Source: Oscillospiraceae bacterium
GTDB taxonomy: Bacteria; Bacillota; Clostridia; Oscillospirales; Acutalibacteraceae
Direction: 5' to 3'
Assembly: GCA_015066345.1 (NCBI GenBank)
Contig: SVOQ01000017.1
Span: 1-55,179 of the forward strand
Length of the DNA stretch: 55,179 nucleotides
Positions 8,580 to 25,909 of the stretch are shown piece after piece. The notes under the pieces were generated by a model, which did no database searches, was not told the origin of the DNA, and saw only the letters and a list, made by a program, of their open reading frames with translations. The position numbers and the translations under genes are program-made. How positions within the stretch are numbered: position 1 is the first letter of the stretch; every line of letters starts with the position of its first letter.

Positions 8580-9347
8580 ATGTTTGAAAAACTTTCTTTT
8601 AACGAAAACAACGAACAGATACTTTGTGAAATTAACGGTAAGCACTCCGATATGCTTATGAACATTAAAGTTAAGCATTTCGAAGCAGATGATACCTTTT
8701 CACTTTTTGATAATGATTGCGAAACTGCTTTCCTTATTCTTTACGGTGATGTTGATATCTCATGGAATGGCGAAACAAGGAATATGACAAGGGAAACACC
8801 CTTTGTAAAAGCATCTTACTGTTTACACGTACCTAAAGAAACAGAGGTTTCAATTAAGGCTAATAAAGAATCCCGTATTCTCATTCAACAGACGGATAAT
8901 GATATTATTTTTACACCTGTTTTTTACACACCCGATATGATTCTTTATCAACATTTCGGCAAGGACCAATGGGAAGGTACAGGTTACAGAATTGTATCCA
9001 CTGTTTTCGACCCTGATAATGCTCCCTACTCAAATATGGTTTTGGGCGAAGTTTATAACCAACCCGGTCGTTGGTCAAGCTATCCTCCCCACCACCATCC
9101 CCAACCCGAGGTTTACTATTATCAATTTGATAAACCCCAGGGCTTCGGAGCCGCTTTTGTAGGTGACAATGTTTTCAAAAGCGTTCAGGGAAGTGCGGTA
9201 TATATTACCGACGGTAACGACCACCAACAGGTTGTTGCCCCCGGTTATGAAATGTGTTATATCTGGATGATTCGTCACTTACCCGATGACCCTTGGTATA
9301 AAACGACACGTTTCGTTTCCGACGAACATCAATGGCTCACAAAATAA
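8580..9347 (+). CDS. iolB: 5-deoxy-glucuronate isomerase
   Basis: This 255-aa cupin-type isomerase converts 5-deoxy-D-glucuronate to 2-deoxy-5-keto-gluconate in inositol breakdown. The metal site is clear in PPHHHPQPEVYYY near residue 170, with a further histidine in DGNDHQQV. The start at 8580 is preceded by AAGAAAGGA; an open frame extends further upstream into the SanA-like gene but without a ribosome site. The family length is about 265-275, so this is slightly short but complete. It sits between the SanA-like gene and iolD. Confidence 0.9.
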   Translation: MFEKLSFNENNEQILCEINGKHSDMLMNIKVKHFEADDTFSLFDNDCETAFLILYGDVDISWNGETRNMTRETPFVKASYCLHVPKETEVSIKANKESRILIQQTDNDIIFTPVFYTPDMILYQHFGKDQWEGTGYRIVSTVFDPDNAPYSNMVLGEVYNQPGRWSSYPPHHHPQPEVYYYQFDKPQGFGAAFVGDNVFKSVQGSAVYITDGNDHQQVVAPGYEMCYIWMIRHLPDDPWYKTTRFVSDEHQWLTK

Positions 9348-9380
9348 ACAAAAACAAATTATTTCTTAGGAGTGATATAA

Positions 9381-11294
9381 ATGCCAATTATGACAATGGG
9401 TCAGGCTCTTGTTAAATTCCTTGACAATCAGTATGTATCCTTTGACGGCAAAGAAACCAAATTCGTTGACGGTATTTTTACCGTTTTCGGTCACGGTATT
9501 GTTTGCGGTCTCGGTCAGGCACTTGACGAGGACAAAGGTGCTCTCAGAGTTTATCAAGGTAAAAACGAACAAGGTATGGCACACGTTGCCGCAAGTTTTG
9601 CAAAGCAACATAACCGCCGTAAAATTATTGCCTGTTCTTCTTCAATAGGTCCCGGTGCTGCCAATATGATTACCGCGGCTGCTACGGCAACGGTTAACAA
9701 TGTTCCCCTCTTGTTATTCCCCGCGGACACATTCGCTTGTAGGCAACCCGACCCCGTATTACAACAGTTTGAGCAACCCTACTCTTTATCAGTAACGACT
9801 AACGATGCTTATAAACCCGTTTGCAGATATTGGGACAGAATCGTAAGACCCGAACAACTTATGTCTGCTATGCTCAACGCTATGCGTGTGCTTACAGATA
9901 CCGCAAACACAGGTGCCGTTTGTATTGCTCTTTGTCAGGATGTTGAGGGTGAAAGTTACGATTACCCCGACGAATTCTTCAAAAAGAGAGTTCACAAAAT
10001 CACAAGAATTGCTCCTGCAGAAGATGAAATCACAGAGATTGCCGAGATTTTAAAATCCGCTAAAAAGCCCCTTGTTATTGCAGGCGGCGGTGTAAGATAC
10101 TCAGAGTGCGGTGATACTTTACAGAAATTCTGCGAAAAACATAATATCCCATTTGCAGAAACTCAGAACGGTAAATCCGCCGTACTTTCATCACACAGGT
10201 TAAACCTTGGCGGTGTTGGTGTTACGGGTAACCTTTCTGCTAACTTAATAGCAAAAGATGCGGATGTTATTATTGGTGTCGGTACTCGTTTCTCGGACTT
10301 CACAACTGCATCAAAATCTTTGTTTAAAGATGATGCTAAGTTCGTTACAATTAACACCGACAGGTTTGATGCTTATAAATTAGGTGCAACCAAAGTTGTT
10401 TGTGACGCTAAATTAGGTATCAAAGCTCTCGACGAAGTTATCGGTGATTACAAGACCTGTTACGCAAACGAAATCGCAGATGCAAAGCAGGCTTGGGCAG
10501 AGGAAATGGCTAAGCTTTCTTCATATACATATTCCGATGACTTTGAACCCATTATCAAAGCAAGATACGAAAAAACCATTCCCGAATTTGTTGAAAAAAC
10601 AGGCGGTAAAATCACCCAGACTGCCGCTCTTGCACTTATCAGAGAAAAAATCGATGATGATGCAATTGCCGTTGCCGCCGCAGGTTCACTCCCCGGTTGT
10701 ATGCAGAGAATGTGGACAACGGACAGTCTCTATTCTTATAATATGGAATACGGCTACTCCTGTATGGGTTATGAAATTGCAGGTGCTCTCGGTTCAAAAC
10801 TCGCAGAACCCGAAAAGGAAGTTTATGCTTTCTGCGGTGACGGTAGTTACCTTATGCTCCATAGCGAACTTGTAACCGCTATTCAGGAAAACAAAAAAAT
10901 CAACGTTCTTCTTTTTGATAACTCAGGTTTCGGTTGCATCAATAACCTTCAGATGTCAAACGGTATCGGCAACCTTGCAACTGAGTTCAGAAAACGTGAC
11001 GAAAACGGTGACCTTTTAGGTGATATTTTCACAATTGATTTTGCGAAATGTGCATCAGGTTACGGCGTTAAGACATACACTGCAACTACTCTCGAAGAAC
11101 TCGAAGCAGCACTTGAAGACAGCAAAAAACAAACTGTTTCAACACTTATTGATATTAAAGTTCTTCCCAAATCAATGACCGATGGCTACGGTGCATGGTG
11201 GCACGTTGGCATTGCATCAACTTCAGCTAAAGAAAGCGTTAACACCGCTTTCCAAAATAAAGAAGAAAATCTTAGAAAAGCGAGGAAATTCTAA
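9381..11294 (+). CDS. iolD: 3D-trihydroxycyclohexane-1,2-dione hydrolase, ThDP-dependent
   Basis: This 637-aa thiamine-diphosphate enzyme opens the ring of 3D-(3,5/4)-trihydroxycyclohexane-1,2-dione to 5-deoxy-glucuronate. It has the three-domain acetolactate-synthase-like layout. The catalytic glutamate is in GKNEQGMAH (near residue 62), a central Rossmann-like domain follows ([12 protein letters not shown]), and the C-terminal ThDP motif begins GDGSYLM near residue 486 and ends LLFDNSGFG. The length matches IolD. An AGGAGTGA ribosome site precedes the ATG. The stop overlaps the next start by one base, so translation is coupled with iolE. Confidence 0.93.
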
Positions 11295-12187
11295 TGCTTG
11301 ATAAAAACAAAGTAAAACTCGGTATTGCACCTATTGCCTGGACAAATGATGATATGCCCGACCTTGGTGCTCAAAACACATTCGAACAGTGCATTTCTGA
11401 AATGGCTCTTGCAGGCTTCACAGGATGCGAAGTAGGTAACAAATACCCCAAAGACACAAAGGTTCTTAAAAAGGCTCTTGACCTTCGCGGTATGCAGATT
11501 TGTAACGCTTGGTTCTCAACCTTCCTTACAACAAAACCCTACGAGGAAACTGAAAAAGACTTTATTGAGCATATTACTTTCCTTAAGGAAATGGGTGCAA
11601 AGGTTGTAGGTGTCTCCGAGCAGGGCCACTCAATTCAGGGTACAGACCTTTCAATTTTTGACGACAAGTACGTTATGAACGACGAAGAATGGGATATGCT
11701 TTGCACAGGTCTTAACAAATTAGGCAAAGTTGCAAAGGATATGGGTATTACCCTTACATTCCATCATCATATGGGTACTGTTGTACAGACTGAAGCTGAA
11801 ATTGACAGACTTATGGAAAATACAGACCCCGAACTTTTCAATCTTCTTTTTGACTCAGGTCACCTTGCATATTGCGGTGAAGATTATATGAGCGTTCTCA
11901 AGAAGTATATTAAACGCATTAAACACGTTCATCTTAAAGATATCCGCCCCGATGTTATTGCAGATGTTAAAGCTAATAAAGAAAGCTTCCTTCAGGGCGT
12001 AAGAAAAGGTACATTCACAGTTCCCGGTGACGGTGTAATTGATTTCGCACCTATTTTTGAAGTTCTTTCTGAAAATGATTACGAGGGTTATGTTCTTGTT
12101 GAAGCAGAGCAAGACCCCGCAATTGCAAACCCCTTTGAATATGCTCTCAAAGCAAGAAAATACATTGCTGAAAAAGCAGGTTTATAA
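11294..12187 (+). CDS. iolE: myo-inosose-2 dehydratase
   Basis: This 297-aa TIM-barrel enzyme of the xylose-isomerase-like family dehydrates 2-keto-myo-inositol (inosose) to the diketone used by IolD. The features are [24 protein letters not shown] and VEAEQDPA, which supply the metal-binding Glu, Asp, His and Glu. The length (about 297) is standard. The start overlaps the iolD stop (TAATG). Confidence 0.92.
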
Positions 12188-12204
12188 TTAACGAGGTGAA
12201 ACTA

Positions 12205-13716
12205 ATGTCAGCAGAAAAAATCAAATATTTTTGTAACGGTCAATACATTGAATCTAAAACTGATGTATGGTATGACCTCCACAACCCCAGTACAGGCGAA
12301 GTAACAGGCTATGCCCCCTGTTGCACTAACGAAGAAGTGCTTGAGGCAGTTGAAGCTGCAAAAGCCGCTTACCCCTCATGGAGTGCAACACCCGCTATCA
12401 AACGTTCTCAGATTCTTTATAACGTTCGTAATCTTCTTGTTGAACATATGGAAGAACTTACAACTCTCGTTGCAGAAGAAAACGGTAAAGTATGGTCCGA
12501 GGCAGAGGGTGATGTACTTAAAGCAAAAGAAGGCACAGAACTCGCTATTCAGGTTACTTCACTTATGATGGGTGAAAGCCTTATGGACGCTTCAAAAGGC
12601 TTTGACACCGTTTTATATCGTGAATCAATGGGTGTTTTCGCAGGTATTGTTCCCGTAAACTTCCCCGCTATGATTCCCTTCGGTTGGATGGTTCCCGTTT
12701 GTGTTGCTTGTGGTAATACAATCGTTCTTAAAGCCGCATCATTAACACCCAGAACCGCTCTCAGAATTGCCGAACTCTACAAAGAGGCGGGTATGCCCGA
12801 CGGTGTTGTTAATATTGTTACTTGCTCAAGAAACGAGATTAATACTCTTCTTGACCACCCCGACATTAAAGGTATCACCTTCGTTGGTTCAACACCCGTT
12901 GGTAAACTTATTTACGAAAGAGCCGCAAAAGCCGGTAAACGTGTTCAGGCTCTTTGTCAGGCTAAAAACCACGCACTTGTTCTCGAGGATACACCTATCG
13001 AAAGAACAGTTGCAGGTATTATCAACTCTGCTTACGGTTGTGCAGGTCAACGTTGTATGGCTCTTTCCTGTTGCGTAGTTCAGGAATCCATTGCCGATAA
13101 ATTCGTTGCAGAGCTTAAGAAACAGGCTATGCAGATTAAAGTAGGTAAATCAGTTGATAAAACTTCAAAACTCGGACCTATTACATACAAAAAGCATTAC
13201 GAGGAAGTTATTGCAGATATCGAAAAAGGTGTTAAGGAAGGTGCAACACTTGTTCTTGACGGTAGAAGCCCCGAACTTCCCGATGAAATCAAAAACGGTT
13301 ACTTTGTAGGACCTACAATTTTCGACAACGTAACTGAGGATATGACTATCGGCAGAGATGAAGTTTTCGGTCCTGTACTTTGCATCAAACGTGTTAAAGA
13401 CTTCCACGAGGGTCTTGCAGTTATGAACGCTAACCCCTATGCAAACGGTTCGGTTATTTTCACACAGAACGGTCACTATGCCCGTGAATTCACACGTCAC
13501 ACCCACGGCGGTATGGTTGGTGTTAACGTTGGTATTCCTGTACCCATCGGATTCTTCCCCTTCTCAGGTCATAAAGATTCATTCTTCGGTGACCTCCACT
13601 GTCTCGGTAAAGATTCTTACAGATTCTTTACAGAAAGCAAATGTATTACAACACGTTGGTTCGATGAAGACGAAATCAAGAAAACAGAAGTTTCCACTTG
13701 GGACGGTACTATCTGA
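12205..13716 (+). CDS. iolA: (Methyl)malonate-semialdehyde dehydrogenase, CoA-acylating
   Basis: This 503-aa aldehyde dehydrogenase is of the MmsA/IolA type. It turns malonate semialdehyde into acetyl-CoA with CO2 release, the last step of the B. subtilis route. The catalytic cysteine is in GQRCMALS near residue 283. FAGIVPVNFPAMIPFGWM and FVGSTPVGK are typical NAD- and substrate-site segments. The start at 12205 has CGAGGTGA upstream; an in-frame GTG at 12196 is part of that ribosome site. Many anaerobes reduce malonate semialdehyde instead, so its presence argues for an oxidative branch. Confidence 0.92.
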   Translation: MSAEKIKYFCNGQYIESKTDVWYDLHNPSTGEVTGYAPCCTNEEVLEAVEAAKAAYPSWSATPAIKRSQILYNVRNLLVEHMEELTTLVAEENGKVWSEAEGDVLKAKEGTELAIQVTSLMMGESLMDASKGFDTVLYRESMGVFAGIVPVNFPAMIPFGWMVPVCVACGNTIVLKAASLTPRTALRIAELYKEAGMPDGVVNIVTCSRNEINTLLDHPDIKGITFVGSTPVGKLIYERAAKAGKRVQALCQAKNHALVLEDTPIERTVAGIINSAYGCAGQRCMALSCCVVQESIADKFVAELKKQAMQIKVGKSVDKTSKLGPITYKKHYEEVIADIEKGVKEGATLVLDGRSPELPDEIKNGYFVGPTIFDNVTEDMTIGRDEVFGPVLCIKRVKDFHEGLAVMNANPYANGSVIFTQNGHYAREFTRHTHGGMVGVNVGIPVPIGFFPFSGHKDSFFGDLHCLGKDSYRFFTESKCITTRWFDEDEIKKTEVSTWDGTI

Positions 13717-13745
13717 TTATTTCACTTTGAAAGGATATAATAATT

Positions 13746-14753
13746 ATGCTTAATATTGGTATTATCGGCGCAGGCCGTATCGGTAAGGTTCACCTTGAAT
13801 CAATTTCTTACCACGTTAAAAATGCAGTTGTAACGGCAATTGCAGACCCTTTCATGAATGACGAAACAAAGGCATTCTGCGAAGGTTTCGGCGTTGAAAA
13901 AATCTACACTGATTACAAAAAAATCATTGAAGACGAAACAATTGATGCAGTTCTTGTTTGCTCTTCTACCGACACCCACGCTCCTATTTCTATTGAAGCA
14001 ATTGAAGCTGGTAAACACGTATTCTGCGAAAAACCCCTTGCAAACACTGTGGAGAAAATTCTTGAAATTGCGGAAGCACTCAAGGCTCATCCCGAAGTAA
14101 AATTCCAGGTTGGCTTTAATCGTCGTTTTGACCATAACTTTGCTGCTGTAAGAAAAGCTTATGATGAAGGTAAAATTGGTGATGCACAAATTCTTAAAAT
14201 CACTTCACGTGACCCTCAGGCACCACCGGTTGGCTACTGTGCAGCAAGTATTTTCCTTGATATGACAATTCACGATTTCGATATGGCTTGTTTCCTTACA
14301 AACAGCGATGTTGAAGAACTCTATGTATACGCTGATGCTCTTATCAATCCCGGTATCCGTGAATATGGTGATTTTGATACAGCTATCATTTCAATGAAAA
14401 TGGAAAATGGTGCTCTTGCAGTTATCGATAATTCACGTCAGGCTATGTACGGCTACGACCAGAGAGCAGAACTTTTCGGTTCAAAGGGTATGGTTGCAAC
14501 CGCTAACGACACTCTTTCAACAGCTGTTATTGCAGACGCAAACGGTGTTACAGGCGAAAAGCCCCTCTATTTCTTCCTTGAGAGATATATGGGCTCATTC
14601 TCTGAAGAAGTAAGACAGTTTGTTGACTGCTGTATAAATGATAAAGAAACGCCCGTTGGTATTCATGCCGGTCTTCAGTCAGTTAAGATTGCTCTTGCTG
14701 CTGAAAAATCCGCTAACGAACACAGACCCGTTAAACTTTCAGAAATCAACTAA
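13746..14753 (+). CDS. iolG: Inositol 2-dehydrogenase
   Basis: This 335-aa Gfo/Idh/MocA-family oxidoreductase catalyses the first step, myo-inositol to 2-keto-myo-inositol with NAD. The Rossmann motif GIIGAGRIGKVH is at the N terminus, the EKP motif is in CEKPLA near residue 94, and MTIHDFDMA carries the catalytic Asp and His. The length is standard. Its ribosome site is GAAAGGATA. It could act on scyllo- or chiro-inositol as well; substrate range cannot be read from sequence. It is the last classical iol gene; the next gene begins 15 nt later. Confidence 0.92.
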   Translation: MLNIGIIGAGRIGKVHLESISYHVKNAVVTAIADPFMNDETKAFCEGFGVEKIYTDYKKIIEDETIDAVLVCSSTDTHAPISIEAIEAGKHVFCEKPLANTVEKILEIAEALKAHPEVKFQVGFNRRFDHNFAAVRKAYDEGKIGDAQILKITSRDPQAPPVGYCAASIFLDMTIHDFDMACFLTNSDVEELYVYADALINPGIREYGDFDTAIISMKMENGALAVIDNSRQAMYGYDQRAELFGSKGMVATANDTLSTAVIADANGVTGEKPLYFFLERYMGSFSEEVRQFVDCCINDKETPVGIHAGLQSVKIALAAEKSANEHRPVKLSEIN

Positions 14754-14768: not shown

Positions 14769-16337
14769 ATGACTGAAAAACACTATGATATTATAGTTAT
14801 TGGTGCAGGTTGCGGCGGTTTAACCGCCGCAACATGTGCTGCAAAAGAAGGAAAAAAGGTTTTATTACTTGAACGCCACAATGCCCCGGGCGGTTTTTCC
14901 TCCAGTTTTGTCAGGGGCAGATTTGAATTTGATGTTTCTTTACACGAGCTCTGCAGATTTTCTAATGAAGCAGGGCTTGGTGAATTACGTGTCATTTTCG
15001 ATTCATTAGGAATCAGTGACAAAATACAATGGACAACCATTCCCGAGGCTTTCAGATTAATAAGCAGATCATACGATGGTTCAAAAATTGATGCTACAAT
15101 GCCTTTCGGTGTTGAAAACTTTATTGAGACAATGGAACAGTATGTACCCGGTAGCAAAGAGTCTATGACAAAGCTCTTTAAATTGGGTGATGAAATTGAA
15201 GAAGCTATTGATTACTTTGCCGCAAACGAAATTAAACCGAGTTTCAAATCAATTCGAAATATTATGAAGAAATACGGTAATTTCGTAAAAACTGCCCCCT
15301 ACTCTGTTAATGAAGTTCTTGATGCTTTAAAAGTTCCCAAAAAAGCACAGGAAATTTTCAATGCCTATTGGTTATATCTCGGGGTTGATTGCGACAGATT
15401 GAGTTTTACTCACTATATAGTAATGGTAAACTCATATATTCGTCTTGGTGCATTTATCCCCACTTTACGCAGCCACGCTATGAGTATGGCTTTAGCCGGT
15501 GTTATTGAAGATAACAATGGTGAAATCCGCTATAATTCACACGTTTCCCGTATTTTATTCAGAGACGGACACGCTTGTGGTGTTATATTAAAAAACGGTG
15601 AAAGAATCAACTGTAATCACATTATCTGCAACTGTTCTCCCACCACCGTTTACTCTAAAATGATGAAAAAGAGTGATGTACCCGTATCGGCACTCAAAAG
15701 GACCAATGCCCGTACTTTTGGTGCAAGAGGTGCTTGTGTTTACTTGGGACTTAACCGTTCTCCCGAGGAATTAGGAATTAAGAATTACTCATATTTCATT
15801 ACAAACACCGCGGACTCCGCATCGCAATTTTCACTTATGAAATCGATAGATACAAACTCCGCTCAGGCGACAGTTTGTTTAAATATAGCTAATCCCGACT
15901 GTTCCCCTGCAGGAACGACAATTTTGTGTATTACTACACTTTATACTGATAATTGTTGGGCAGACGTAACCCCCGAGGGTTATTTCGACGAAAAAGACTT
16001 ACTTGCCGCCCGACTTATTTCAAAATTTGAGGACGCAACAGGCATCACCATTCACAAATATATTGAAGAAATTGAGGTTGCAACACCCGCTACCTTCGCA
16101 AGATATACTAATACTCCCCAAGGCGTAATCTACGGTTATCTCGGTGATGATTGGGATAGTGTCGTACCAAGATTTATGACAGAAGCAATTGATTGCGACA
16201 CCCCAGGTCTGCGTTTTTGCGGTGGTTGGGGAACTCAACTTTCAGGGGTTAATTCCGCAGTTGCCTCAGGCAGAAATGCTGCATACGCAACTCTTTATGA
16301 CATAGCCGAAGAAAGGAGCGACAACAATGAAGAATAA
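14769..16337 (+). CDS. CrtI/retinol-saturase-like FAD-dependent oxidoreductase
   Basis: This 522-aa flavoprotein opens with a dinucleotide-binding motif (VIGAGCGGLTAA, residues 10-21) followed by LLERHNAPGG. It ends with the second FAD motif of the phytoene desaturase family, CGGWGTQLSGVNSAVASGRNAA-type, near residue 495. Relatives desaturate or saturate long hydrophobic chains (carotenoids, retinol) or oxidise amines. No carotenoid biosynthesis genes are present here, so the substrate is open. The gene follows iolG by 15 nt with GAGGTC upstream. Its 3' end overlaps the next gene by 11 nt, so the two proteins are probably made in step and may form an electron-transfer pair. Confidence 0.8.
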   Translation: MTEKHYDIIVIGAGCGGLTAATCAAKEGKKVLLLERHNAPGGFSSSFVRGRFEFDVSLHELCRFSNEAGLGELRVIFDSLGISDKIQWTTIPEAFRLISRSYDGSKIDATMPFGVENFIETMEQYVPGSKESMTKLFKLGDEIEEAIDYFAANEIKPSFKSIRNIMKKYGNFVKTAPYSVNEVLDALKVPKKAQEIFNAYWLYLGVDCDRLSFTHYIVMVNSYIRLGAFIPTLRSHAMSMALAGVIEDNNGEIRYNSHVSRILFRDGHACGVILKNGERINCNHIICNCSPTTVYSKMMKKSDVPVSALKRTNARTFGARGACVYLGLNRSPEELGIKNYSYFITNTADSASQFSLMKSIDTNSAQATVCLNIANPDCSPAGTTILCITTLYTDNCWADVTPEGYFDEKDLLAARLISKFEDATGITIHKYIEEIEVATPATFARYTNTPQGVIYGYLGDDWDSVVPRFMTEAIDCDTPGLRFCGGWGTQLSGVNSAVASGRNAAYATLYDIAEERSDNNEE

Positions 16338-17529
16338 AATCAAAGTACGCTCCACCCTTAAAGATATAAGGAACTTCACCAATATTCCCGAATTACGTAA
16401 AGGGGTTATTCAAGAAGCTCCCGAAACACCCGTTAACGGTAATTTCGCGGTCAATTCCATCGCCAACTTTTTGCACCCTTCCACACAGTATCTTAAAGTT
16501 AAGCAAGTAGCGGAAATTAACCGTTATACGAGGGCTTATATTCTCGAACCCGATACTGCACACGGTACGGCTAAATTAGCCTATTTCAGACCGGGTCAAT
16601 GGATAAGCGTTACTTTACAAATAGGTAATGCAATTGTTACAAGACCATATACCCTTTGTGCGTCACCCTTACGCTCGGTTGATGATGAATATATGATTAT
16701 AGTTGATAAAAAGCCCGATGGCTTTGCATCACATTATATATTCAACAATTGGCGAAAAGGTACTGAAATAACAGCATCGGCACCTTGCGGTAATTTTTAT
16801 TACCAACCCTTAAGAGATTCAAAAAATGTTGTAGGTGTATGCGATAACCATGGTTTTTCAGGCTTTTTATCAATGGCAGAGGCAATTGCCGATAAAAGTC
16901 TTAATATGGATTTAACCTTGATTTATTACGCAAGAAAACAAAATGAGGCTATTATGTCCCAAAGGTTTGATGAATTATCCGAAAAAGCCTCTAATTTCAG
17001 AATCATTTATGTTTTCAGTGATGAACACGTTTTCAAATGTGAGCGAGGTTTTGTTACAAAAAGCCTTATAGAAAAATATGCCCCTTTTACAAAATACAGT
17101 TTATTTGTCAGCGGTTCAAATACTTTATACAACCGCCTTATACCCCAAATAAGCGAATTAAAATTAGAAAACAAGTATATCCGTTTTGGTTTAAACGGAC
17201 AGATTATTAACCCCGAAGCCCTTCCTGATTTTCCTCAGGATGCCATCGGTAAAACTTTCTTATGTAAGGTTATAAAGGATGGCGAATTGCTCTCAACCGT
17301 TCCTTGTAGTTCGACAGAATCCTTGCTTGTGGCTTTAGAACGTGAGGGTATTAAAGCACCTTCCCTTTGCCGTTCGGGCGAATGCGGATTTTGCCGTGCA
17401 AAACTTCTTAAAGGTAATGTTTTCATCCCTAAGGGTGTTGACAACAGAAGACTTGCGGACTCAAGCCACGGTATTATTCACCCCTGTTGTTCATATCCGA
17501 TGAGCGATATGACCCTCGTAATTAATTAA
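16327..17529 (+). CDS. Flavodoxin/ferredoxin reductase-like protein with C-terminal 2Fe-2S domain
   Basis: This 400-aa protein has an FNR-type FAD domain (RPYTLCAS near residue 107), a nucleotide-binding-like domain, and a plant-type ferredoxin domain. The ferredoxin carries CRSGECGFC and a last cysteine in HPCCSYP (C-x4-C-x2-C-x29 or so-C). The first 70 residues are not recognised. The usual nicotinamide loop GGxGxTP is replaced by GVCDNHGFSGFLSM, so NAD(P)H use is uncertain. It probably passes electrons to or from the flavoprotein encoded just upstream. Its ribosome site GAAAGGAG lies inside the upstream gene. Confidence 0.8.
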   Translation: MKNKIKVRSTLKDIRNFTNIPELRKGVIQEAPETPVNGNFAVNSIANFLHPSTQYLKVKQVAEINRYTRAYILEPDTAHGTAKLAYFRPGQWISVTLQIGNAIVTRPYTLCASPLRSVDDEYMIIVDKKPDGFASHYIFNNWRKGTEITASAPCGNFYYQPLRDSKNVVGVCDNHGFSGFLSMAEAIADKSLNMDLTLIYYARKQNEAIMSQRFDELSEKASNFRIIYVFSDEHVFKCERGFVTKSLIEKYAPFTKYSLFVSGSNTLYNRLIPQISELKLENKYIRFGLNGQIINPEALPDFPQDAIGKTFLCKVIKDGELLSTVPCSSTESLLVALEREGIKAPSLCRSGECGFCRAKLLKGNVFIPKGVDNRRLADSSHGIIHPCCSYPMSDMTLVIN

Positions 17530-17544
17530 AACACGGAGTAATTT

Positions 17545-19236
17545 ATGATTGATATAAAAGGACAAATTCTTGCCGCATTCGGCGGTATGTTAGGCGTATG
17601 CGAACACATAAAACTTAACATTTATTCACGCAGAGCCAACAAAATGCAGAAAACTTGCGTCAAACGTCTTATGCGTAAAAATAAATCTACGGTTTACGGT
17701 AAACTTAATAACTTTAAAGATGTTAAGTCCATTGAAGATTACCAACGTATAGTCCCCCTCTCCACCTATGCTGATTATGATGAATACGTCTGGAGGATGG
17801 CAAACGGCGAAAAAGGGCTTATTACAAATATGTTTGTACGCCGTTTCACCGAATCTTCAGGTAGTACAGGTAAGCAAAAACTCGTTCCCCTCTCCTATTG
17901 GGCAGAGTGGGTTTGTCAGTGTTTCAGTTTCAGTGCACCCGTTGGTTGTGCGGTAAAATGGTTTATGAAAAAAGGCAGACCGATTCCGCCCCAAAAGGGA
18001 CTTTTAACTGCAGAAACAGGCAGACGCAAAGTTAAGGGTGGTACAATAAGTTGCCTATCATCAATACCCCTTCTTAACCTTCGTCCCCTTGTTCCATTCT
18101 TCGCAACATCGCCCAAGGAAGTTCTTTTTCCTGAGCAAGGTGCGGATATGGATATGCATTATCTTAAACTCCGTTTTGCTTTACCTAACCGAAAAACAAG
18201 CTACTTAGGTACAGTATTCATTACAACCCTCGAGTCAATGTTCTTTTATATGGAAGAAAACTGGGAAATGCTATGTGATGATATTGAAAAGGGTATTATC
18301 AACGACAGTATTAAAATGCCCGAGGAACTCAGGAAGAAATACAATAAAAAACTCAGACCCAATCCCAAAAGAGCCGAGGAGTTACGTCGTGAATTCCGTA
18401 AGGGATTTGACGAATCACCTATTATTCCGAGAATCTGGCCTAAGGTTGAGTGGATGTACGGTATGGGTACGGGTTCCCTCGCCTTTTATGCTAAAAAATT
18501 AAGACGTTATATTGGCGAGGATATGCCCATTCACTACTTGGGTTACACCGCAACTGAAGCATTTATGGCAGTTCCCATTGAACTGAACTCTTTCGAATAT
18601 GTAATGCTTCCGCAGAACGGTTTTTATGAGTTCAGACCCATTGACTGCGACAGTTACGATAATCTTCTTACTATAAAAGACCTTGAAGTCGGCAAAGAAT
18701 ATGAAATAATACTTACTAATATGAGCGGTTTTTACCGTTATCGTATTGAAGATGTTATTAAAGTTACGGGCTTTTATCACCAATGCCCCAAAATCACATT
18801 CTGTTATCGACTTAACCAAATTGCAAATATAAGTGGTGAAAAGGTAAGCTCCCTTGCTTTTGACGAAATCGTTGCTAACCTTTCTGAAAAGATGGATGAT
18901 TTATATATAGGTTACAGTATTTATCCCGACAGAAGCACCTCACCCGGTCATTACATACTATTAGTTGAAACCGCAGAACCCATAAGCGACGAAAAGAAAG
19001 CAAAGTACAACGAAGCATTTGAAGAAATGCTTTGTAAGGGTAACGTAAGTGTTGAGCCACTTATAAAAAGCGGTGCGTTAGGTCACTGCGAGGTTAAATT
19101 CCTGAAACACGGTACATACGACGATTACCGTGAAGTATTACGAAAAAGAGGAGCAAACCTTAATCAGGTAAAACCCATTAAAGTTATTGACAATGACGAA
19201 AAAAGAGATTTCTTCTTTTCGCATATCCAAGGGTGA
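17545..19236 (+). CDS. GH3-family acyl-adenylating protein
   Basis: This 563-aa protein belongs to the GH3 family, known from plant auxin/jasmonate amido synthetases that adenylate a carboxylic acid and join it to an amino acid. The ATP motif TESSGSTGKQK lies near residue 105, YTATEAFMAVP near 330, and the family hallmark SGFYRYRIEDVI with DLEVGKEYEIIL near 385-400. Bacterial members have no settled substrate. There is no carrier-protein domain. It sits 15 nt after the ferredoxin-reductase-like gene. The context suggests activation of a carboxylic acid, later handled by the condensation-like protein encoded next (4 nt gap). Confidence 0.85.
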   Translation: MIDIKGQILAAFGGMLGVCEHIKLNIYSRRANKMQKTCVKRLMRKNKSTVYGKLNNFKDVKSIEDYQRIVPLSTYADYDEYVWRMANGEKGLITNMFVRRFTESSGSTGKQKLVPLSYWAEWVCQCFSFSAPVGCAVKWFMKKGRPIPPQKGLLTAETGRRKVKGGTISCLSSIPLLNLRPLVPFFATSPKEVLFPEQGADMDMHYLKLRFALPNRKTSYLGTVFITTLESMFFYMEENWEMLCDDIEKGIINDSIKMPEELRKKYNKKLRPNPKRAEELRREFRKGFDESPIIPRIWPKVEWMYGMGTGSLAFYAKKLRRYIGEDMPIHYLGYTATEAFMAVPIELNSFEYVMLPQNGFYEFRPIDCDSYDNLLTIKDLEVGKEYEIILTNMSGFYRYRIEDVIKVTGFYHQCPKITFCYRLNQIANISGEKVSSLAFDEIVANLSEKMDDLYIGYSIYPDRSTSPGHYILLVETAEPISDEKKAKYNEAFEEMLCKGNVSVEPLIKSGALGHCEVKFLKHGTYDDYREVLRKRGANLNQVKPIKVIDNDEKRDFFFSHIQG

Positions 19237-19240
19237 AAAT

Positions 19241-20620
19241 ATGTCTTATATTAATAAAGAAGGTGAAATTATTTCCCTTAAAAACAAGGGTTTAACTGAC
19301 GAAAAAGTCATTAAGGACCTGATTTGTCGCAAAGAAAAAAATCCCGAACTTTACAACTCAAAAATCCCTTGTGAAATGTACGATAAAGTCAACCTGATGT
19401 GCCGTAATTATATGGACAGAATGGCACGTTTTGAAGTTGATTATGATTTTATAATTGACGAAGTTGCTTTTAAAAACACGGCAATATGTTGCCTTGAATG
19501 TGCACCATTTATGCACTCAAAGGTTATTAACAGTCCCCTATCACCATATTGGAAAGTTTGTGACTACCATATAGACCAGATGGTTACATTCGAAGAAGTT
19601 GAGGATGTAGAAAAAGCAAGAATGGAGTTTTTCTCAAAAGAAATTCCCCTTTCAAGCAACATTCAAATGAATATCGGAGTTTTTATAAACAACTCTAAAT
19701 CCTATGTCTGCTTTATATGGAATCATATGTGTTTCGATGGTGGTGGATACAAAGCATTCTGGAGTGATTTTTGTAAAAACTACTCCGACTATGTTCTTTA
19801 CGGTATATCCCCCGTTAACTTTTCAAGCGGTTCAAGAAAGTATACCGAAATTTATAAGGATATGGATAAGGACTTTGCTAAGAAAGCAAAAAAACAATTC
19901 GCCAACATTTCACCTAAAGATAAACACATCCTTCCCTTTGAAGACACAAAAAAGGAAGACAGTGTTATTATTGTACATCGCGAGGTAAGTGCAGAGAAGT
20001 TTTCGAAAGCCGTTGATTATGCAAAGAGCGTTGGTGCAACAGTCAATGATATTATAGTTGCCGCTTATATTGATGCTTTTGGCAAGGTTTCGGGAATAAA
20101 TGAAAACGAATCCATAAACGTTTCCTGTGCTACCGATTTAAGACGTCACTTAAAAGACACAAAAAGTATCGGGTATACAAACCACGTTTCCTTTGCTCAT
20201 TGTTACTTAGAACATAAGGGCTCGGATTTTAAAGATACTCTGAATAAAGTTTCTTTGAAAACCAAGGAAATAAAAAAAGACCCCTATATGGGTCTGCATG
20301 GGTTACCGTTACTTAATATAGCCTACAAATCAATGGTGTACCTACAAGCAGAAACGGTTGTCAAACTATTTTATAATAACCCTACCCTTTCTGTAAGTAA
20401 CGTTGGTAAAATTGATACAGTTGCTTTCTCCTTAGCCAATAACCCTCCGTTTTCCGCTTTTGTTGCGGGAGCGGCTAAGAATAAGCCTTGCGCAGTAATG
20501 ACGGCGTTGACCATTAACGGTAGATTAAAAGCCTCCATGTGCTTAAGAGGTAACGAAAAAGATAAAGAATTATTAGAGAGGTTTTTCACCGAATTTAAAA
20601 ATTCAATAGAAAGCATTTAA
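19241..20620 (+). CDS. Condensation-domain/alcohol acyltransferase-like protein
   Basis: This 459-aa protein resembles the CoA-dependent acyltransferase superfamily (NRPS condensation, alcohol acetyltransferase, wax-ester synthase). The active-site HxxxDG is present as HMCFDG at residue 162, and the C-terminal half has SVSNVGKID, like the conserved asparagine-glycine segment of these enzymes. It would catalyse ester or amide bond formation from an activated acyl group. No thiolation domain is nearby. I chose the ATG at 19241 with AAGGGTG upstream; a longer frame overlaps the GH3 gene. It is the last gene before the terminator at 20623. Confidence 0.75.
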   Translation: MSYINKEGEIISLKNKGLTDEKVIKDLICRKEKNPELYNSKIPCEMYDKVNLMCRNYMDRMARFEVDYDFIIDEVAFKNTAICCLECAPFMHSKVINSPLSPYWKVCDYHIDQMVTFEEVEDVEKARMEFFSKEIPLSSNIQMNIGVFINNSKSYVCFIWNHMCFDGGGYKAFWSDFCKNYSDYVLYGISPVNFSSGSRKYTEIYKDMDKDFAKKAKKQFANISPKDKHILPFEDTKKEDSVIIVHREVSAEKFSKAVDYAKSVGATVNDIIVAAYIDAFGKVSGINENESINVSCATDLRRHLKDTKSIGYTNHVSFAHCYLEHKGSDFKDTLNKVSLKTKEIKKDPYMGLHGLPLLNIAYKSMVYLQAETVVKLFYNNPTLSVSNVGKIDTVAFSLANNPPFSAFVAGAAKNKPCAVMTALTINGRLKASMCLRGNEKDKELLERFFTEFKNSIESI

Positions 20621-20622
20621 AA

Positions 20623-20662
20623 ACAGGTCAGTAAGATTAAACTTACTGACCTGTAATTTTTA
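20623..20662. terminator. Bidirectional terminator between iol operon and pyrH operon
   Basis: A perfect 13-bp stem pairs ACAGGTCAGTAAG (20623-20635) with CTTACTGACCTGT (20642-20654), followed by AATTTTTA on the plus strand and giving GTTTTTAAA on the minus strand. It ends both convergent operons. Confidence 0.9.
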
Positions 20663-22150
20663 TTAATCCTTTGTAAGAGCACGGATGTATCGCTTAAAGA
20701 ATGCAACACCTGATTCCAATGTATCAATAGGAATTCTTTCGTTTGTACCGTGAGTTGTTAAGAGAAGCTCCGTAGTCATAAGATAGGGTGAATAACGATA
20801 AATATTATCGCAAACATCCTCATACTGACGTGCATCAGTACCACCCATTACAAGATAAGGAGCAACTATAACCTTGGGGTCCATAGATTTACAGATGTTT
20901 GAAATAACATTAAATGCTCTTGAGTCTGTGGGCGAAATCTTAGAGGGATTTTTACCGCTGAGAAGTTTAACCTCTGCCTTGGGTCCTGCGTACTTTTTAA
21001 TATGAGCCTCAACATCTTCCACTGTCTGACCGGGCATAATGCGGAAGTTTGCAACTACTGATGCCTTCTGAGGAAGAACATTGGGTGCAGGGCTACCGTT
21101 GGACATTGTAATTGCGGTAGTAGTTCTCATCATAGATGCAACGGGAGGAATTTCGGTACATACTCTTTTAATAAGAGGTTTAAGAATGGGGAAATTACTC
21201 ATTACGCATCTTACGGGATAAGTTGTACTCTTACCTAATTCGTTGAAAAGTGATGAAAGTTGGGGTGTAAGTTCGGCTTTGAACTGATGATTTTCAAGGT
21301 TACATACAATCTTTGAAAGTTCACCAATAGCACTGTGTTTGGGAGGTTGTGATGAATGACCGCCCTTTGCATTTACGGAAATCTCAAAGTCAACGTGACC
21401 TTTTTCGGCGATACCGATACCTGCAAGATGGCCATCAATAACTTTATCAACCTTTACGGAAAGAATCGCACCGCCCTCATCAATAACACTGTCGAGTTTG
21501 ATACCGTGTTCCTTGAACCACATCATCATACTATGAGCGCCACACTGTTCACCCTCAGCCATAACTTCCTCGTTATGACCGAAGCAAAGGTAAATGTCAC
21601 GTTCGGGAACATAACCTTCAGCAAGAAGGGTTTCAACGGCTTCCATAATACCAATAAGTTGGTTTTTGATATCGATAGCACCTCTGCCCCAGATATAACC
21701 GTCGGCTACTTCACCGCCAAAGGGAGCGTGAGTCCAGTCACCCTCAGTACCGGGAGTAACGGGAACTACGTCCTGATGGGCAAGTAAAGCAATGGGTTCT
21801 TTTTCGGGATGAGCGCTCTTCCAATGATACATAAGAGAGCGTGTTGAAATAATCTGTAAATCAAGTTTCTCGTGAACAAGAGGATATGCCTCTTTTAAGA
21901 ACGCATGAAACTCATCAAAAACAGACCAATCTACAAGGCTTTCATCCACATTGGCAATAGTGGGATACTGAATTGCCTTTGAAAGGTTATTAATAAACCT
22001 CTCAACATCAACTTCCTCGGGAGGGAGTTTGTCTACCTCTGCAACAGGTTTAGCCTTGTATGTTGTAGCGGCTCTTACCATACTTACGCCGATACCTGCG
22101 GCGGCTATGGCACCTGTACCTGCTAAAATATACTTAGTTGCCTTTTTCAT
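20663..22150 (-). CDS. Membrane-anchored M20-family metallopeptidase (PM20D1/CPG2-like)
   Basis: This 495-aa protein has one N-terminal hydrophobic segment (about residues 7-27) and a full M20 dizinc domain. LLAHQDVVPV near residue 121 and GRGAIDIKNQ give the first metal ligands, GHNEEVMAE has the catalytic glutamates, and GGTDARQYE and the final TTHGTNERI complete the site. The layout, with a long lid domain, resembles carboxypeptidase PM20D1, which makes and cleaves N-acyl amino acids in animals. A plain exported or anchored dipeptidase is equally possible. It is the last gene of the pyrH operon, 27 nt after polC, and faces the GH3/acyltransferase genes tail to tail. Confidence 0.85.
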   Translation of the reverse strand: MKKATKYILAGTGAIAAAGIGVSMVRAATTYKAKPVAEVDKLPPEEVDVERFINNLSKAIQYPTIANVDESLVDWSVFDEFHAFLKEAYPLVHEKLDLQIISTRSLMYHWKSAHPEKEPIALLAHQDVVPVTPGTEGDWTHAPFGGEVADGYIWGRGAIDIKNQLIGIMEAVETLLAEGYVPERDIYLCFGHNEEVMAEGEQCGAHSMMMWFKEHGIKLDSVIDEGGAILSVKVDKVIDGHLAGIGIAEKGHVDFEISVNAKGGHSSQPPKHSAIGELSKIVCNLENHQFKAELTPQLSSLFNELGKSTTYPVRCVMSNFPILKPLIKRVCTEIPPVASMMRTTTAITMSNGSPAPNVLPQKASVVANFRIMPGQTVEDVEAHIKKYAGPKAEVKLLSGKNPSKISPTDSRAFNVISNICKSMDPKVIVAPYLVMGGTDARQYEDVCDNIYRYSPYLMTTELLLTTHGTNERIPIDTLESGVAFFKRYIRALTKD

Positions 22151-22177
22151 AATATCAACTCCTGTTTTTATAAAAGA

Positions 22178-25100
22178 TTAAAACAACGACATCTGGTCAC
22201 TGTCGGGAAGAGCACCGAAAGCACCGCAATTCTTTAACACTGCTATTGTTGAACTGCCTGCACCTGAACGCACCTCAAAATCCTCAATTGATGAAAATTC
22301 GGGGCCACCGTCATTTCTGGCATTTGCAAGTTGAGCCGCAGCGTTTTCACCAACACCCGCAAGGGATGCGAAAGGCATACGGATTTTTCCATCCTCGGGT
22401 ACATATGAACTTGCGGTTGATTTGTAAACATCAATGGGCAAGAACTCTATACCGCGTACCATTGCCTCGTAAACAATCATCATAATTGTTTCTTTACTCT
22501 TTTCGGCGGCGGATGCCTCTTTACCTTTGGCTTTTATCATCTGCAATAATGATTTAACCGCATTCTTACCCTTTGACATTGCCTCAGCATCTACATCATC
22601 ACCACGAACGGTAAGATATGCACAGTAATATTCAAGGGGTTTATAAATTTTGAACCAAGCAAGTCTTAAGGATGCAATAATATATGCGGCGGCGTGTGCC
22701 TTGGGGAACATATACTGAATCTTTTTACAAGAATCAATATACCACTCGGGAACACCGTGTTCACGCATCATTGCCTCTTGTTCAGGCTTCAACTGTTTGT
22801 TCTTTTTACGTACGTCTTCCATAATATCAAAGGCGTGTTTAGGATCGAGACCCTTATGGAGAAGATAAACCATAATACTGTCACGAGTACCGATAACCTC
22901 TGAAATTGTACATATACCCTCTTTAATAAGGTCCTGAGCATTTCCGAGCCACACGGCAGTACCGTGGGAAAGACCCGCAATCTGAATAAGGTCGGCAAAG
23001 GTCTGAGGTCTTGCTTCAAGAAGCATTCCCTTAGTAAAGTCAGTACCCATTTCGGGAATTGAAAGTGTACCTGTGGGCCAACCTAATTCCTCCTCAGTTA
23101 CACCTAAGGGTTCGGGAGAAGTACATATCTCGTAAAGTTTACGGTCACTGATGTCGATATCAAGAACATCAATACCTGTTAAGTCGGTCAAATGCTTATA
23201 AATCGTAGGAACATCATGACCGAGTTCGTCGAGCTTTAACAATGTATCGTGCATTGAGTTAAAGTCAAAGTGGGTTGTGATGATATCTTTTGTTGTATCA
23301 TCCGCAGGTCTTTGAACAGGGGTAAAATCCTCAACCTCGTATGTATTGGGAACAACAACCATACCACCCGGGTGCTGACCCGTTGTTCTCTTAACGCCCG
23401 TACAACCAATGGTGAGACGGTCAATTTCCGCCTTGGTCATTGTAAGACCGCGTTCATCCATATATTTCTTAACAAAGCCGTATGCGGTTTTATCCGCAAC
23501 ACCCGAAATAGTACCGGCTTTAAAAACGTATGCTTTACCGAATAATTCTTCAGTATACTTATGGGATTGAGCCTGATACTCACCCGCAAAGTTAAGGTCA
23601 ATATCGGGTGATTTATCACCAAAGAAACCAAGGAATGTTTCAAAAGGAATTTCGTGACCGTCACGTACTAACGGAGTACCGCAATGGGGACAATTTTTAG
23701 GCGGTAAGTCAAATCCCGAACCGACTTCGTTATGAATAAAGAATTCGGAGTAACGGCACTCGGGACAACGGTAGTGAGGTTGCAAGGGGTTAACCTCGGA
23801 AATACCCGCCATAATTGCAACGAATGACGAACCTACCGAACCTCTCGAGCCTACGTAATAACCGCACTCCTCGGAGTGTTTAACAAGGAGTCGCGCAATC
23901 ATATAAAGACCCGCGAAACCGTTTTCGATAATGGATTTAAGTTCCTTTTCAAGTCTTTGGGCAACGATTTCAGGTACAGGGTCACCGTACCATTCCTTTG
24001 CTCTATCCCAACAGTGCTTAGTTAAATCTTCCTCAGCACCGGGGATTATGGGGTTGAAAGTACCGTCAGGTATGGGCAAGATACCCGGTTCAACCATATC
24101 GGCAATAATGTTGGTATTAGTAATAACAACCTCTTTAGCCGTGTCTTCACCAAGGTAACTGAATTCCTCAAGCATTTCTGCGGTGGTTTTAAGGTACAAG
24201 GGCGGTTGATAGTCCGCATCCTTAAAGCCCTGACCCGCCTGAAGAATTGCTCTGAATTTGGCGTCCTCTTTTTTAAGGAAATGAACGTCACCCGTGGCAA
24301 CGGTCTTTTTACCCAATTCATCACCGAGGTTAATAATAGCACGGTTAATTGCCTTAATATCATCAAATGAATTAATATCCGCGTAAAGTTCCCTCATAGC
24401 CTCACGCATAGTTTCTTTTCTTAACATATACTCGTTGTTTCCAACGGGTTGTATCTCAAGATAATCATAGAAAGATGCGATTTCAACCAATTTTTCGTGG
24501 CTCTCTTTTTTAACGAATGCTTCAAAAAGTTCGCCCTCGGAACAAGCGCTGCCTATAATAAGTCCTTCACGCATTTCGTGAATAAGACTCTTGGGCATAC
24601 GGGGTTTACCACGGAAGTAATCAAGGTTGGAACGGGAGATAAGTTTGTAAAGATTCTTAAGACCAACTTTATTTTTAACAAGTAAGATACAATGATAATA
24701 AGAATCAAGTAAAATTTCTTCTTTAGATTTCTTTGAACCGTCACTGTTAATATCATTAACAAGGTACGCTTCACAACCGTAGATAATCTTAAAATCACTG
24801 CCACGTGCCGTATTACAGGCCTCAGGAAAAGCTTGTACGCAACCGTGGTCGGTAATGGCAATTGCCTTATGTCCCCACTTCATAGCGGTTTTAACGATGG
24901 TTTTTGCACATGTCATTGCGTCCATTGCGGACATATTGGTATGAAGATGGAGTTCAACTCGCTTCTCCTCTGCCTCGTCAACCGGGTCAACCTTTGTAAC
25001 GGTTGAAACGGAGGTAGGTTTAATAATATAGTCTTTTTTATACTCGTCATAAAGAAGCGGTCCACGGACAATTACCGTAACACCATCTTTAATTTTACTG

Positions 25101-25909
25101 TCAAGGTACTCAAGTTGTTCTTTCAAATCAAAGAATTTACATCCAAATGAGCCTGTATTATCGGTAATGTTAAACTCAATAATTGAACGCTTACCGTCTT
25201 TGGTTTCGCGTTTTTCGTATTTAAATACATCACCCCATACAAGTATTTCACCATCATCAAATGAAATCTCGCTCATAGGAGTGGGTTTTGCGTATTTAAA
25301 CTGACCGAAAATTGCCTGAACAGTATTGAAATCAAGGGGTACACCCTCAAAATTCGGGTTAACCTCAGGGGGTTTCACAGGTTGATTTGACCTGTCGATT
25401 TCACGTTGTTTTTTTAAAAAATCCTCTTCGCTACTGTTTTCGCCCTCGAAAACAACAGTAATTTTTCTTTCAAAATGCTGTAATATATAGTCTTCAAGGA
25501 ATTTATCTGCTTTGGCATTTTCGCATATATCCCTACCGTGTTTTAAAAACTTAACGGTAAAAACATCATCAACAAAAGTTGTTTCTATCTGGTCTAAAAA
25601 GCCATTGGTCTGAGGAACACTCTTTTTAACAACCCTTAAAAGCATCGGGAAACACTCGTATTTAAGTGCTTCGGGAGGTAAAACATAATCAAACTCCACT
25701 CGTTTAAGAGAAAGGGAATTTTTAACCTCCCCTGCCACGGCTTTAAGGCACATAATATTATCAAAAATATCAATATGCAATAAAGCGGACAAGGATTGAT
25801 CCTCTTTATTAATATGTAAATCGGTGAACAAGGTGTTTTTCAACATATTACGATATTTGTCAGAAGATATGTATTCACCGAATATTTCAAGGAAATTGTA
25901 CAATTTCAT
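22178..25909 (-). CDS. polC: DNA polymerase III PolC-type alpha subunit without exonuclease domain
   Basis: This 1243-aa protein is the Gram-positive replicative polymerase. It has an N-terminal domain, an OB fold (about 215-310), a PHP domain beginning VELHLHTNMS near residue 316, zinc-binding CPEC and CPHC, catalytic PDIDLNF near residue 766, TTGQHPGG, and a C-terminal clamp-binding QMSLF. In B. subtilis (1437 aa) a DnaQ-like 3'-5' exonuclease is inserted in the PHP domain after the GMEANLVDD-like segment. Here YGCEAYLVND (about 375) is followed after roughly 20 residues by the second half of PHP (YYHCILLVKN), and no DxE exonuclease motif is present. The PHP metal ligands look complete. It overlaps ispG by 4 nt. 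Confidence 0.95.
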   Translation of the reverse strand: MKLYNFLEIFGEYISSDKYRNMLKNTLFTDLHINKEDQSLSALLHIDIFDNIMCLKAVAGEVKNSLSLKRVEFDYVLPPEALKYECFPMLLRVVKKSVPQTNGFLDQIETTFVDDVFTVKFLKHGRDICENAKADKFLEDYILQHFERKITVVFEGENSSEEDFLKKQREIDRSNQPVKPPEVNPNFEGVPLDFNTVQAIFGQFKYAKPTPMSEISFDDGEILVWGDVFKYEKRETKDGKRSIIEFNITDNTGSFGCKFFDLKEQLEYLDSKIKDGVTVIVRGPLLYDEYKKDYIIKPTSVSTVTKVDPVDEAEEKRVELHLHTNMSAMDAMTCAKTIVKTAMKWGHKAIAITDHGCVQAFPEACNTARGSDFKIIYGCEAYLVNDINSDGSKKSKEEILLDSYYHCILLVKNKVGLKNLYKLISRSNLDYFRGKPRMPKSLIHEMREGLIIGSACSEGELFEAFVKKESHEKLVEIASFYDYLEIQPVGNNEYMLRKETMREAMRELYADINSFDDIKAINRAIINLGDELGKKTVATGDVHFLKKEDAKFRAILQAGQGFKDADYQPPLYLKTTAEMLEEFSYLGEDTAKEVVITNTNIIADMVEPGILPIPDGTFNPIIPGAEEDLTKHCWDRAKEWYGDPVPEIVAQRLEKELKSIIENGFAGLYMIARLLVKHSEECGYYVGSRGSVGSSFVAIMAGISEVNPLQPHYRCPECRYSEFFIHNEVGSGFDLPPKNCPHCGTPLVRDGHEIPFETFLGFFGDKSPDIDLNFAGEYQAQSHKYTEELFGKAYVFKAGTISGVADKTAYGFVKKYMDERGLTMTKAEIDRLTIGCTGVKRTTGQHPGGMVVVPNTYEVEDFTPVQRPADDTTKDIITTHFDFNSMHDTLLKLDELGHDVPTIYKHLTDLTGIDVLDIDISDRKLYEICTSPEPLGVTEEELGWPTGTLSIPEMGTDFTKGMLLEARPQTFADLIQIAGLSHGTAVWLGNAQDLIKEGICTISEVIGTRDSIMVYLLHKGLDPKHAFDIMEDVRKKNKQLKPEQEAMMREHGVPEWYIDSCKKIQYMFPKAHAAAYIIASLRLAWFKIYKPLEYYCAYLTVRGDDVDAEAMSKGKNAVKSLLQMIKAKGKEASAAEKSKETIMMIVYEAMVRGIEFLPIDVYKSTASSYVPEDGKIRMPFASLAGVGENAAAQLANARNDGGPEFSSIEDFEVRSGAGSSTIAVLKNCGAFGALPDSDQMSLF

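Follow-up and report, generated by a model that had tools for sequence, protein, structure and literature searches.

Two gene pairs, crtI-fnr and gh3-AT, behind the inositol catabolism operon of an Oscillospiraceae bacterium are separate units within their genus

Introduction

In Singulisphaera acidiphila, as described in passages of PMC12493201, the GH3 enzyme OlsH makes N-acyl-ornithine and the alpha/beta-hydrolase OlsI adds a second acyl group to give an ornithine lipid. The OaaA-OaaACP-OaaC system of Coprococcus eutactus includes OaaC, which makes fatty acid amides and represents an enzyme class with the motif (D/H)HxxxDS (passages of PMC13142362). Both systems are compared here with four genes that lie directly behind an inositol catabolism (iol) operon in an Oscillospiraceae bacterium of the family Acutalibacteraceae (assembly GCA_015066345.1). 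The window, meaning the whole stretch of DNA analysed, is contig SVOQ01000017.1 from position 1 to 55,179 of the forward strand (55,179 nucleotides; contig C23 of a 2.33-Mb assembly with a completeness of about 98%). The four genes form two two-gene units, crtI-fnr and gh3-AT, each stable within the pair and not with the other. Within the genus, crtI-fnr joined the iol genes early and gh3-AT joined separately, in one clade of three species. The four genes are as follows.

14769..16337, + strand: crtI, CrtI-type FAD protein of 522 amino acids (aa), CrtI/amino-oxidase (phytoene-desaturase) family
16327..17529, + strand: fnr, a 400-aa FAD/NAD(P)H reductase that ends in a plant-type 2Fe-2S domain (FAD_binding_6, NAD_binding_1 and Fer2)
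17545..19236, + strand: gh3, acyl-adenylating amido synthetase of 563 aa, the only GH3 match of the assembly
19241..20620, + strand: AT, NHxxxDG acyltransferase of the condensation/PapA fold, 459 aa, by predicted structure and motif

The gh3-AT pair resembles OlsH/OlsI in that a bacterial GH3 enzyme and a second acyl-transfer enzyme stand in one operon; OlsI is an alpha/beta-hydrolase, and 22 of 41 more distant GH3 genes of Clostridia (42-48% identity) likewise adjoin a gene for an alpha/beta-hydrolase-like protein (for OlsH and OlsI, passages of PMC12493201). The partner of the window GH3 has a condensation fold instead and is not an alpha/beta-hydrolase O-acyltransferase, which sets the pair outside the OlsH/OlsI type. 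Likeness to OaaA-OaaACP-OaaC lies in the gut Clostridia as hosts, in acyl transfer by a free-standing condensation-fold protein and in two loci that hold similar parts before gh3-AT, whereas the window has a GH3 enzyme instead of the AMP-ligase and NHxxxDG instead of (D/H)HxxxDS (passages of PMC13142362). Directly 5' of gh3-AT, both of these loci (L173 and L175) encode an AMP-ligase, a condensation protein and a PP-binding carrier protein of 70 aa. A search of the genus (22 genomes, with that of the window) gave no match to the L173 condensation protein at E 1e-15. Membership of the OaaC type was rejected on account of this absence and of the window motif, NHMCFDG.

Plant GH3 enzymes (JAR1, GH3.12) are distantly related to the window GH3 and have the same domain make-up and ATP motifs, and the predicted fold and HxxxDG motif of AT are common to PapA5, trichothecene acetyltransferases and the condensation domains of nonribosomal peptide synthetases (NRPS). 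The carotenoid enzymes CrtI, CrtD and CrtISO share their fold and FAD domain with the window CrtI, which differs from them in missing all curated cut-offs and in its constant 2Fe-2S reductase partner. Retinol saturase is another relative with this fold and FAD domain.

Arrangement of the two pairs

A preliminary description of this DNA had placed the four genes immediately behind iolG, and this layout was confirmed: all lie on the + strand, with successive spacings of 15 nt, -11 nt, 15 nt and 4 nt. The layout is not due to chance, because the order recurs in two further species. The gene identities first proposed (CrtI-like protein, reductase with a 2Fe-2S domain, GH3 enzyme and HxxxDG acyltransferase) were likewise borne out, the families by Pfam and AT by its predicted fold, and none of the four is a known enzyme of inositol catabolism.

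The genus comparison covered 22 genomes, the window's own (G000) included. In all 18 that bear crtI it is followed by fnr, one fnr being cut by a contig end. The gh3 gene is present in 18 genomes and AT follows it in 17, the eighteenth (G016) being cut by a contig end; G021 has AT and no GH3 match, and its contig ends about 125 bases before AT. The two pairs are far less constant in their relation to each other, with fnr directly preceding gh3 in 3 of the 18 gh3-bearing species (G000, G008 and G018). These three form one clade of the CrtI tree (support 1.0), with GH3 and CrtI proteins 85-93% identical to those of the window. In six other species gh3-AT is next to the M20 peptidase gene and dnaE, which are the downstream neighbours in the window, and in G001, G002, G012 and G019 it is surrounded by his genes and clp-like genes (neighbours named by their sequences). 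In G014 the iol-crtI-fnr block and gh3-AT are about 21 kb apart on the same contig and strand. The contig ends within about 350 bases 5' of gh3 in G005, G010, G013 and G015; G010 and G013 carry crtI-fnr at another place, and G005 and G015 yielded no crtI of this kind. L235, from another genus and apparently one contig with L189, carries crtI-fnr and gh3 on a single strand; crtI-fnr is 5.8 kb upstream, and an open reading frame (ORF) of the opposite strand lies between them. In labelling these neighbourhoods, BLAST matches below 50-60 bits and CrtI profile matches below 150 bits were left unlabelled. Because gh3-AT accompanies M20-dnaE in six other species, the four-gene run is most simply explained by a rearrangement that put an old block, gh3-AT-M20-dnaE, behind another old block, iol-crtI-fnr.

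The crtI gene directly follows iolG in 12 of the 18 genomes, and G013 is probably a thirteenth case, as a second contig carries a piece of iolD and a piece of crtI at the right distance. No iolD was found in the remaining five (G001, G002, G012, G016 and G019; 80-97% complete), in which sanA, crtI and fnr are contiguous and adjoin the same YhhN-family gene. These five species form one clade of the CrtI tree (support 1.0) nested among the iol-linked ones, and the simplest history is therefore that iol was lost while sanA-crtI-fnr was kept. The persistence of crtI-fnr in this clade speaks for a use of the pair that does not depend on inositol catabolism. In other genera, fnr is beside crtI in 17 of 18 loci, two of them with a weak fnr match; these loci were picked from 46 CrtI-bearing genomes beyond the genus, mainly GH3 carriers. 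The only iol gene near them is an iolA (64%) that adjoins crtI-fnr on the other strand in L252 (G333). Neither pair would need inositol as a partner, in the case of gh3-AT to judge by its position.

The preliminary description had suggested that the four enzymes could act together, possibly with inositol or one of its breakdown products as donor or acceptor. A single pathway of this kind is not supported and was rejected as the principal interpretation, since the halves separate in related genomes: gh3-AT is unjoined in 15 of 18 species, the contigs of four of these ending shortly before gh3, and crtI-fnr is retained in the five species in which no iolD was found. The condition named at that stage as refuting the proposal included an occurrence of the four genes mostly away from iol genes; this applies to gh3-AT, and crtI-fnr is linked to iol in 13 of 18 genomes.

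Several other arrangements of crtI-fnr were seen. The window's own genome has a second crtI-fnr pair (L125, G000:C26:42116-44821), 45% and 38% identical to the window pair. In L243 and L244 (G103 and G217), crtI and a divergent short fnr stand among large proteins that by eye resemble B12-binding radical SAM proteins. A YhhN-family (lysoplasmalogenase-like) gene, at 4883-5581 on the - strand of the window, and the SanA-like gene accompany crtI-fnr across the genus, even without iol; a link to lipids or the cell envelope is possible.

The GH3 enzyme and its acyltransferase

The window GH3 has three GH3 Pfam domain matches of 237.5, 87.4 and 58 bits, each against a cut-off of 23.6. The ATP motifs (SSGS/T, YxATE-like and YRYxxxD) are recognisable in 14 of 14 aligned rows and slightly changed in the distant ones, and a sequence search shows resemblance to plant amido synthetases of the JAR1 type. 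Its sole NCBIfam match is OlsH (NF052613), at 65.2 bits, which misses the cut-off of 620. By sequence the protein is a member of the GH3 acyl acid amido synthetase family, and ATP-dependent amide formation is its predicted activity.

The AT reading frame starts at an ATG with AAGGGTG just 5' of it, the longest ORF beginning at a TTG at 19187. Searches of Pfam and NCBIfam at E 0.001 gave no match, and the PDB sequence match was at chance level only. The predicted model (pLDDT 86.5) matches NRPS condensation, epimerisation and cyclisation domains, PapA5 and TRI3/TRI101, with 8-13% identity among the 50 matches listed. The NHxxxDG motif is invariant in 13 of 13 aligned sequences, and a relative without GH3 pairing passes the Pfam Condensation model PF00668 (36.2 vs 30.6 bits). 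The predicted fold, together with HxxxDG, places AT in the condensation / CoA-dependent acyltransferase superfamily.

The best 80 of 143 named GH3 relatives were kept; their assemblies are of uncultured Clostridia and in many cases, going by the titles, derive from the gut of ruminants, deer or horses. Where GH3 is at least 67% identical, AT follows in 30 of 32 loci, and the remaining two are cut by contig ends. Several of the named loci L151-L188 are contigs of the G genomes, and three pairs of loci (L189/L235 of G269, L156/L253 of G119 and L175/L254 of G176) appear to be the same contigs, so that these counts are not independent. In six of the seven loci with GH3 at 60-63% (L179, L183, L185, L186, L187 and L220), gh3 is followed by genes that by eye encode a permease-type membrane protein and a PLP-dependent decarboxylase-like protein; the seventh, L184, is without them. 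The decarboxylase-like protein could serve as an amine source.

The AT family also occurs away from GH3. In other genera, a membrane protein of about 270 aa precedes AT in 20 of 20 loci (L255-L274, e.g. L255:4481-6564; 20 of the 23 places with a strong AT not beside GH3 were read), and G010 and G020 of this genus have a second AT copy in the same arrangement. A short motif of this membrane protein recurs as an N-terminal extension of the GH3-paired AT; profile searches in either direction, against few targets, gave matches of up to 28 bits. On the simplest reading, the GH3-paired AT would have been recruited from an older membrane protein-AT pair, with a stub of the membrane protein retained.

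An exported alpha/beta-hydrolase-like protein with a GxCxG elbow is encoded directly beside gh3 in 22 of the 41 loci with GH3 at 42-48% identity. The elbow cysteine is kept in 27 of 29 family members, and the profile matches lipases and, weakly and in 3 of 11 cases, also LCAT. Among 80 genomes searched, the exported hydrolase was found in 33 of 38 with GH3 and 7 of 42 without it; the 42 were the first by handle number rather than a random draw, and up to 18 candidates per genome were scored. Each of four genomes of the genus had 3-5 matches, and the number per genome reached at least 18, the scoring limit. The window's genome has five, the best at C46:14841-16367, and 39 other genomes also carry the family.

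The CrtI-type flavoprotein and its reductase

Among the matches listed (25 models), CrtI is under every NCBIfam cut-off, the best match being 103.7 bits against 586.9. Its predicted model (pLDDT 86.9) is closest to a gamma-carotenoid desaturase, 4rep (TM 0.76 on the query). The cysteines of the 2Fe-2S domain of Fnr have the order CX4CX2C...C, and the protein resembles the reductases of aromatic oxygenases.

Co-occurrence with inositol genes

In a survey of 300 genomes of the family, CrtI was found in 50, GH3 in 38, iolD over its cut-off in 64 and AT in 37 (30 of them strong). GH3 and CrtI occur together in 27 genomes (6.3 expected), GH3 and iolD in 30 (8.1 expected) and CrtI and iolD in 32 (10.7 expected). 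Strong AT and iolD coincide in 25 genomes against 6.4 expected, or 27 against 7.9 when the seven weak AT are added. Counted over 135 genera, GH3 and CrtI coincide in 11 (3.1 expected) and GH3 and iolD in 12 (3.3 expected). Rhamnose isomerase (RhaA, 128 genomes), taken as a control, is also associated with GH3 (29 of 38 vs 16.2 expected), iolD (44 of 64 vs 27.3) and CrtI (33 of 50 vs 21.3), and not significantly with AT (16 vs 12.8); part of the co-occurrence signal is therefore genome content or niche. Five of the 38 GH3-bearing genomes (G074, G167, G238, G256 and G258) have a divergent GH3, neither CrtI nor iolD over the thresholds, and no exported hydrolase. The counts retain shared ancestry and niche, and counting by genus lessens the ancestry without removing it. 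Because the 300 genomes belong to one family and are related, co-occurrence with iolD is a lead and not proof.

One neighbourhood points in the same direction. In G036, of another genus, L266:3645-7697 carries on one strand the membrane protein gene, AT, an iolJ-like aldolase gene (52%) that begins 134 nt after AT, and iolC (67%); in G270 of the same genus (L269), the same aldolase and iolC are on the strand opposite to AT, at a distance of about 3.7 kb. For the other 18 loci with AT away from GH3, a search of the stretch read for iol genes, at 35% identity and 60% coverage, found none. Two of the 80 named gh3 loci, L151 and L152, belong to the three species in which all four genes are joined; the remaining 78 yield L217, with iolG (58%) about 6 kb off, and L200, with a 35% aldolase.

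Co-occurrence and the G036 neighbourhood are the main result in favour of the inositol link first proposed: GH3, CrtI and AT do accompany iolD above expectation and AT can stand by iol genes, and it is the shared four-part pathway that is not supported. An indirect link to inositol, through niche, regulation or metabolism, may exist.

Proposed functions and alternative explanations

The interpretation that we prefer, at a probability of about one half, is that crtI-fnr is an electron-transfer pair for the reduction of C=C bonds in a hydrophobic substrate and that gh3-AT is a pair for making a doubly acylated amino-lipid, the two being separate units. Electrons from NAD(P)H would reach the CrtI-like flavoprotein by way of the FAD and the 2Fe-2S cluster of Fnr. 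The most likely role of this flavoprotein, in anaerobes such as these, would be to reduce (saturate) C=C bonds of a polyene or isoprenoid-type substrate. GH3 would adenylate a fatty or other hydrophobic acid with ATP and couple it to an amino acid or amine, and AT would then move an acyl group from CoA or a carrier thioester onto the resulting N-acyl product. The pair would thus act like OlsH followed by OlsI, with an unrelated second enzyme, and the operon position would co-express both pairs with inositol use. Several observations weigh against this interpretation. With 65 bits against a cut-off of 620, the GH3 protein scores far too low for the OlsH model. That CrtI works in the reducing direction is a prediction, and its closest relatives of solved structure are desaturases and oxidases. 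The 48 named loci whose GH3 is less than 64% identical (7 at 60-63% and 41 at 42-48%) all lack AT beside it. AT homologues occur beside the membrane protein gene with no adjacent GH3, so AT may accept something other than a GH3 product, and this makes the two-step model weaker. Finally, the co-occurrence with iolD and the AT-aldolase-iolC order of G036 exceed what a pure accident of position would give.

Of the alternatives, the one that we rank first, although still as unlikely, is a fatty acid amide pathway resembling OaaA-OaaACP-OaaC, in which the GH3 acyl-adenylate would pass to a carrier or react directly and AT would be the amide-forming condensation enzyme, yielding simple N-acyl amines that signal to the host. 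The predicted condensation fold of AT, the ligase, condensation protein and carrier that precede gh3-AT in L173 and L175, and the fatty acid amides made by OaaC (in passages of PMC13142362) are consistent with this, whereas the L173 condensation protein is unmatched within the genus and the AT motif, NHxxxDG, departs from the (D/H)HxxxDS given in the same passages. AT would moreover be redundant as a second amide former, because a GH3 enzyme makes amides alone. A somewhat lower probability attaches to chance, by which one local rearrangement set gh3-AT behind fnr without any significance for function or regulation. The joining of the pairs in a single clade and the other neighbours that each has elsewhere fit such an accident, which is harder to reconcile with the conservation of the order among three species at 85-93% identity of their GH3 and CrtI to those of the window, with the 11 of 135 genera that hold both GH3 and CrtI (3.1 expected) and with the 5.8-kb proximity in L235.

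More doubtful than chance is a single co-inherited, inositol-tied lipid programme of herbivore-gut Clostridia that would include the exported GxCxG hydrolases: GH3 and AT would build the doubly acylated amino-lipid, CrtI-Fnr would saturate either the chain of this lipid or a second lipid that goes with it, the exported enzymes would act on the amino-lipid outside the cell, and inositol breakdown would give carbon or an inducing signal. The least probable is one inositol-linked pathway in which the operon is the functional unit and the four enzymes modify a hydrophobic acid and join it to an alcohol or amine derived from inositol. The single strand and short gaps, the four-gene order of three species, the co-occurrence of GH3, CrtI and AT with iolD (the rhamnose isomerase control being weaker), AT by aldolase-iolC in G036 and about 3.7 kb from them in G270, and the two blocks of G014 on one contig and strand all speak for it. 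Against it, gh3-AT is joined to iol-crtI-fnr in just 3 of 18 species, crtI-fnr outlives the loss of iol in the clade of five, iol genes are near 1 of the 18 crtI loci outside the genus and 2 of the 78 named gh3 loci, and shared ancestry remains in the co-occurrence counts. GH3 enzymes are, in addition, amide-forming ligases, and inositol is no amine.

The inositol operon and its surroundings

The features around the four genes are listed below.

5963..14753, + strand: inositol catabolism operon, with an iolJ-like aldolase gene, iolC, the SanA-like gene, iolB, iolD, iolE, iolA/mmsA and iolG
7838..8563, + strand: SanA/DUF218-like gene within the iol operon (PF02698 over its cut-off, PRK10834 under its cut-off)
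13746-14753, + strand: iolG, from the ORF list
20623..20654, no strand assigned: 13-bp hairpin, likely a terminator, between converging genes
20663..25909, - strand: M20 peptidase gene and DNA polymerase III gene (dnaE), neighbours of gh3-AT also in other species

Three iol genes are over their NCBIfam cut-offs: iolD (922 bits, cut-off 715), iolG (428 bits, cut-off 355) and iolA/mmsA (MMSDH model, 544 bits, cut-off 448.5). The iolB model is the sole match of its gene, yet at 87 bits it is under the cut-off of 205. The names iolC and iolE rest on gene order and sequence, and that of the DNA polymerase III gene on sequence. The SanA/DUF218-like gene is a part of the operon that the preliminary description had left out. 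The U-rich tail of the hairpin at 20623-20654 is stronger on the - strand. A promoter scan gave 40 sites against 40.4 expected. Riboswitch control of the operon was considered and rejected, as Rfam at gathering cut-offs found on the window a lysine riboswitch only, far off (RF00168, 77 bits, 49377-49546, - strand).

Significance

The enzyme families involved are known already. In the open-licence literature, titles and abstract beginnings yielded no GH3 genes tied to iol genes and no pair of CrtI and ferredoxin reductase in Clostridia, and titles, abstract beginnings and passages yielded no description of a fixed pair of GH3 and condensation-fold acyltransferase or of an exported alpha/beta-hydrolase-like neighbour of GH3.

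What seemed to be a multi-step operon resolves into older units once related genomes are compared. The gh3-AT unit is a small and testable gene pair and, if the proposed function is true, it would add to OlsBA, OlsF and OlsH/OlsI another genetic route by which acylated amino-lipids are made, here in uncultured gut Clostridia.

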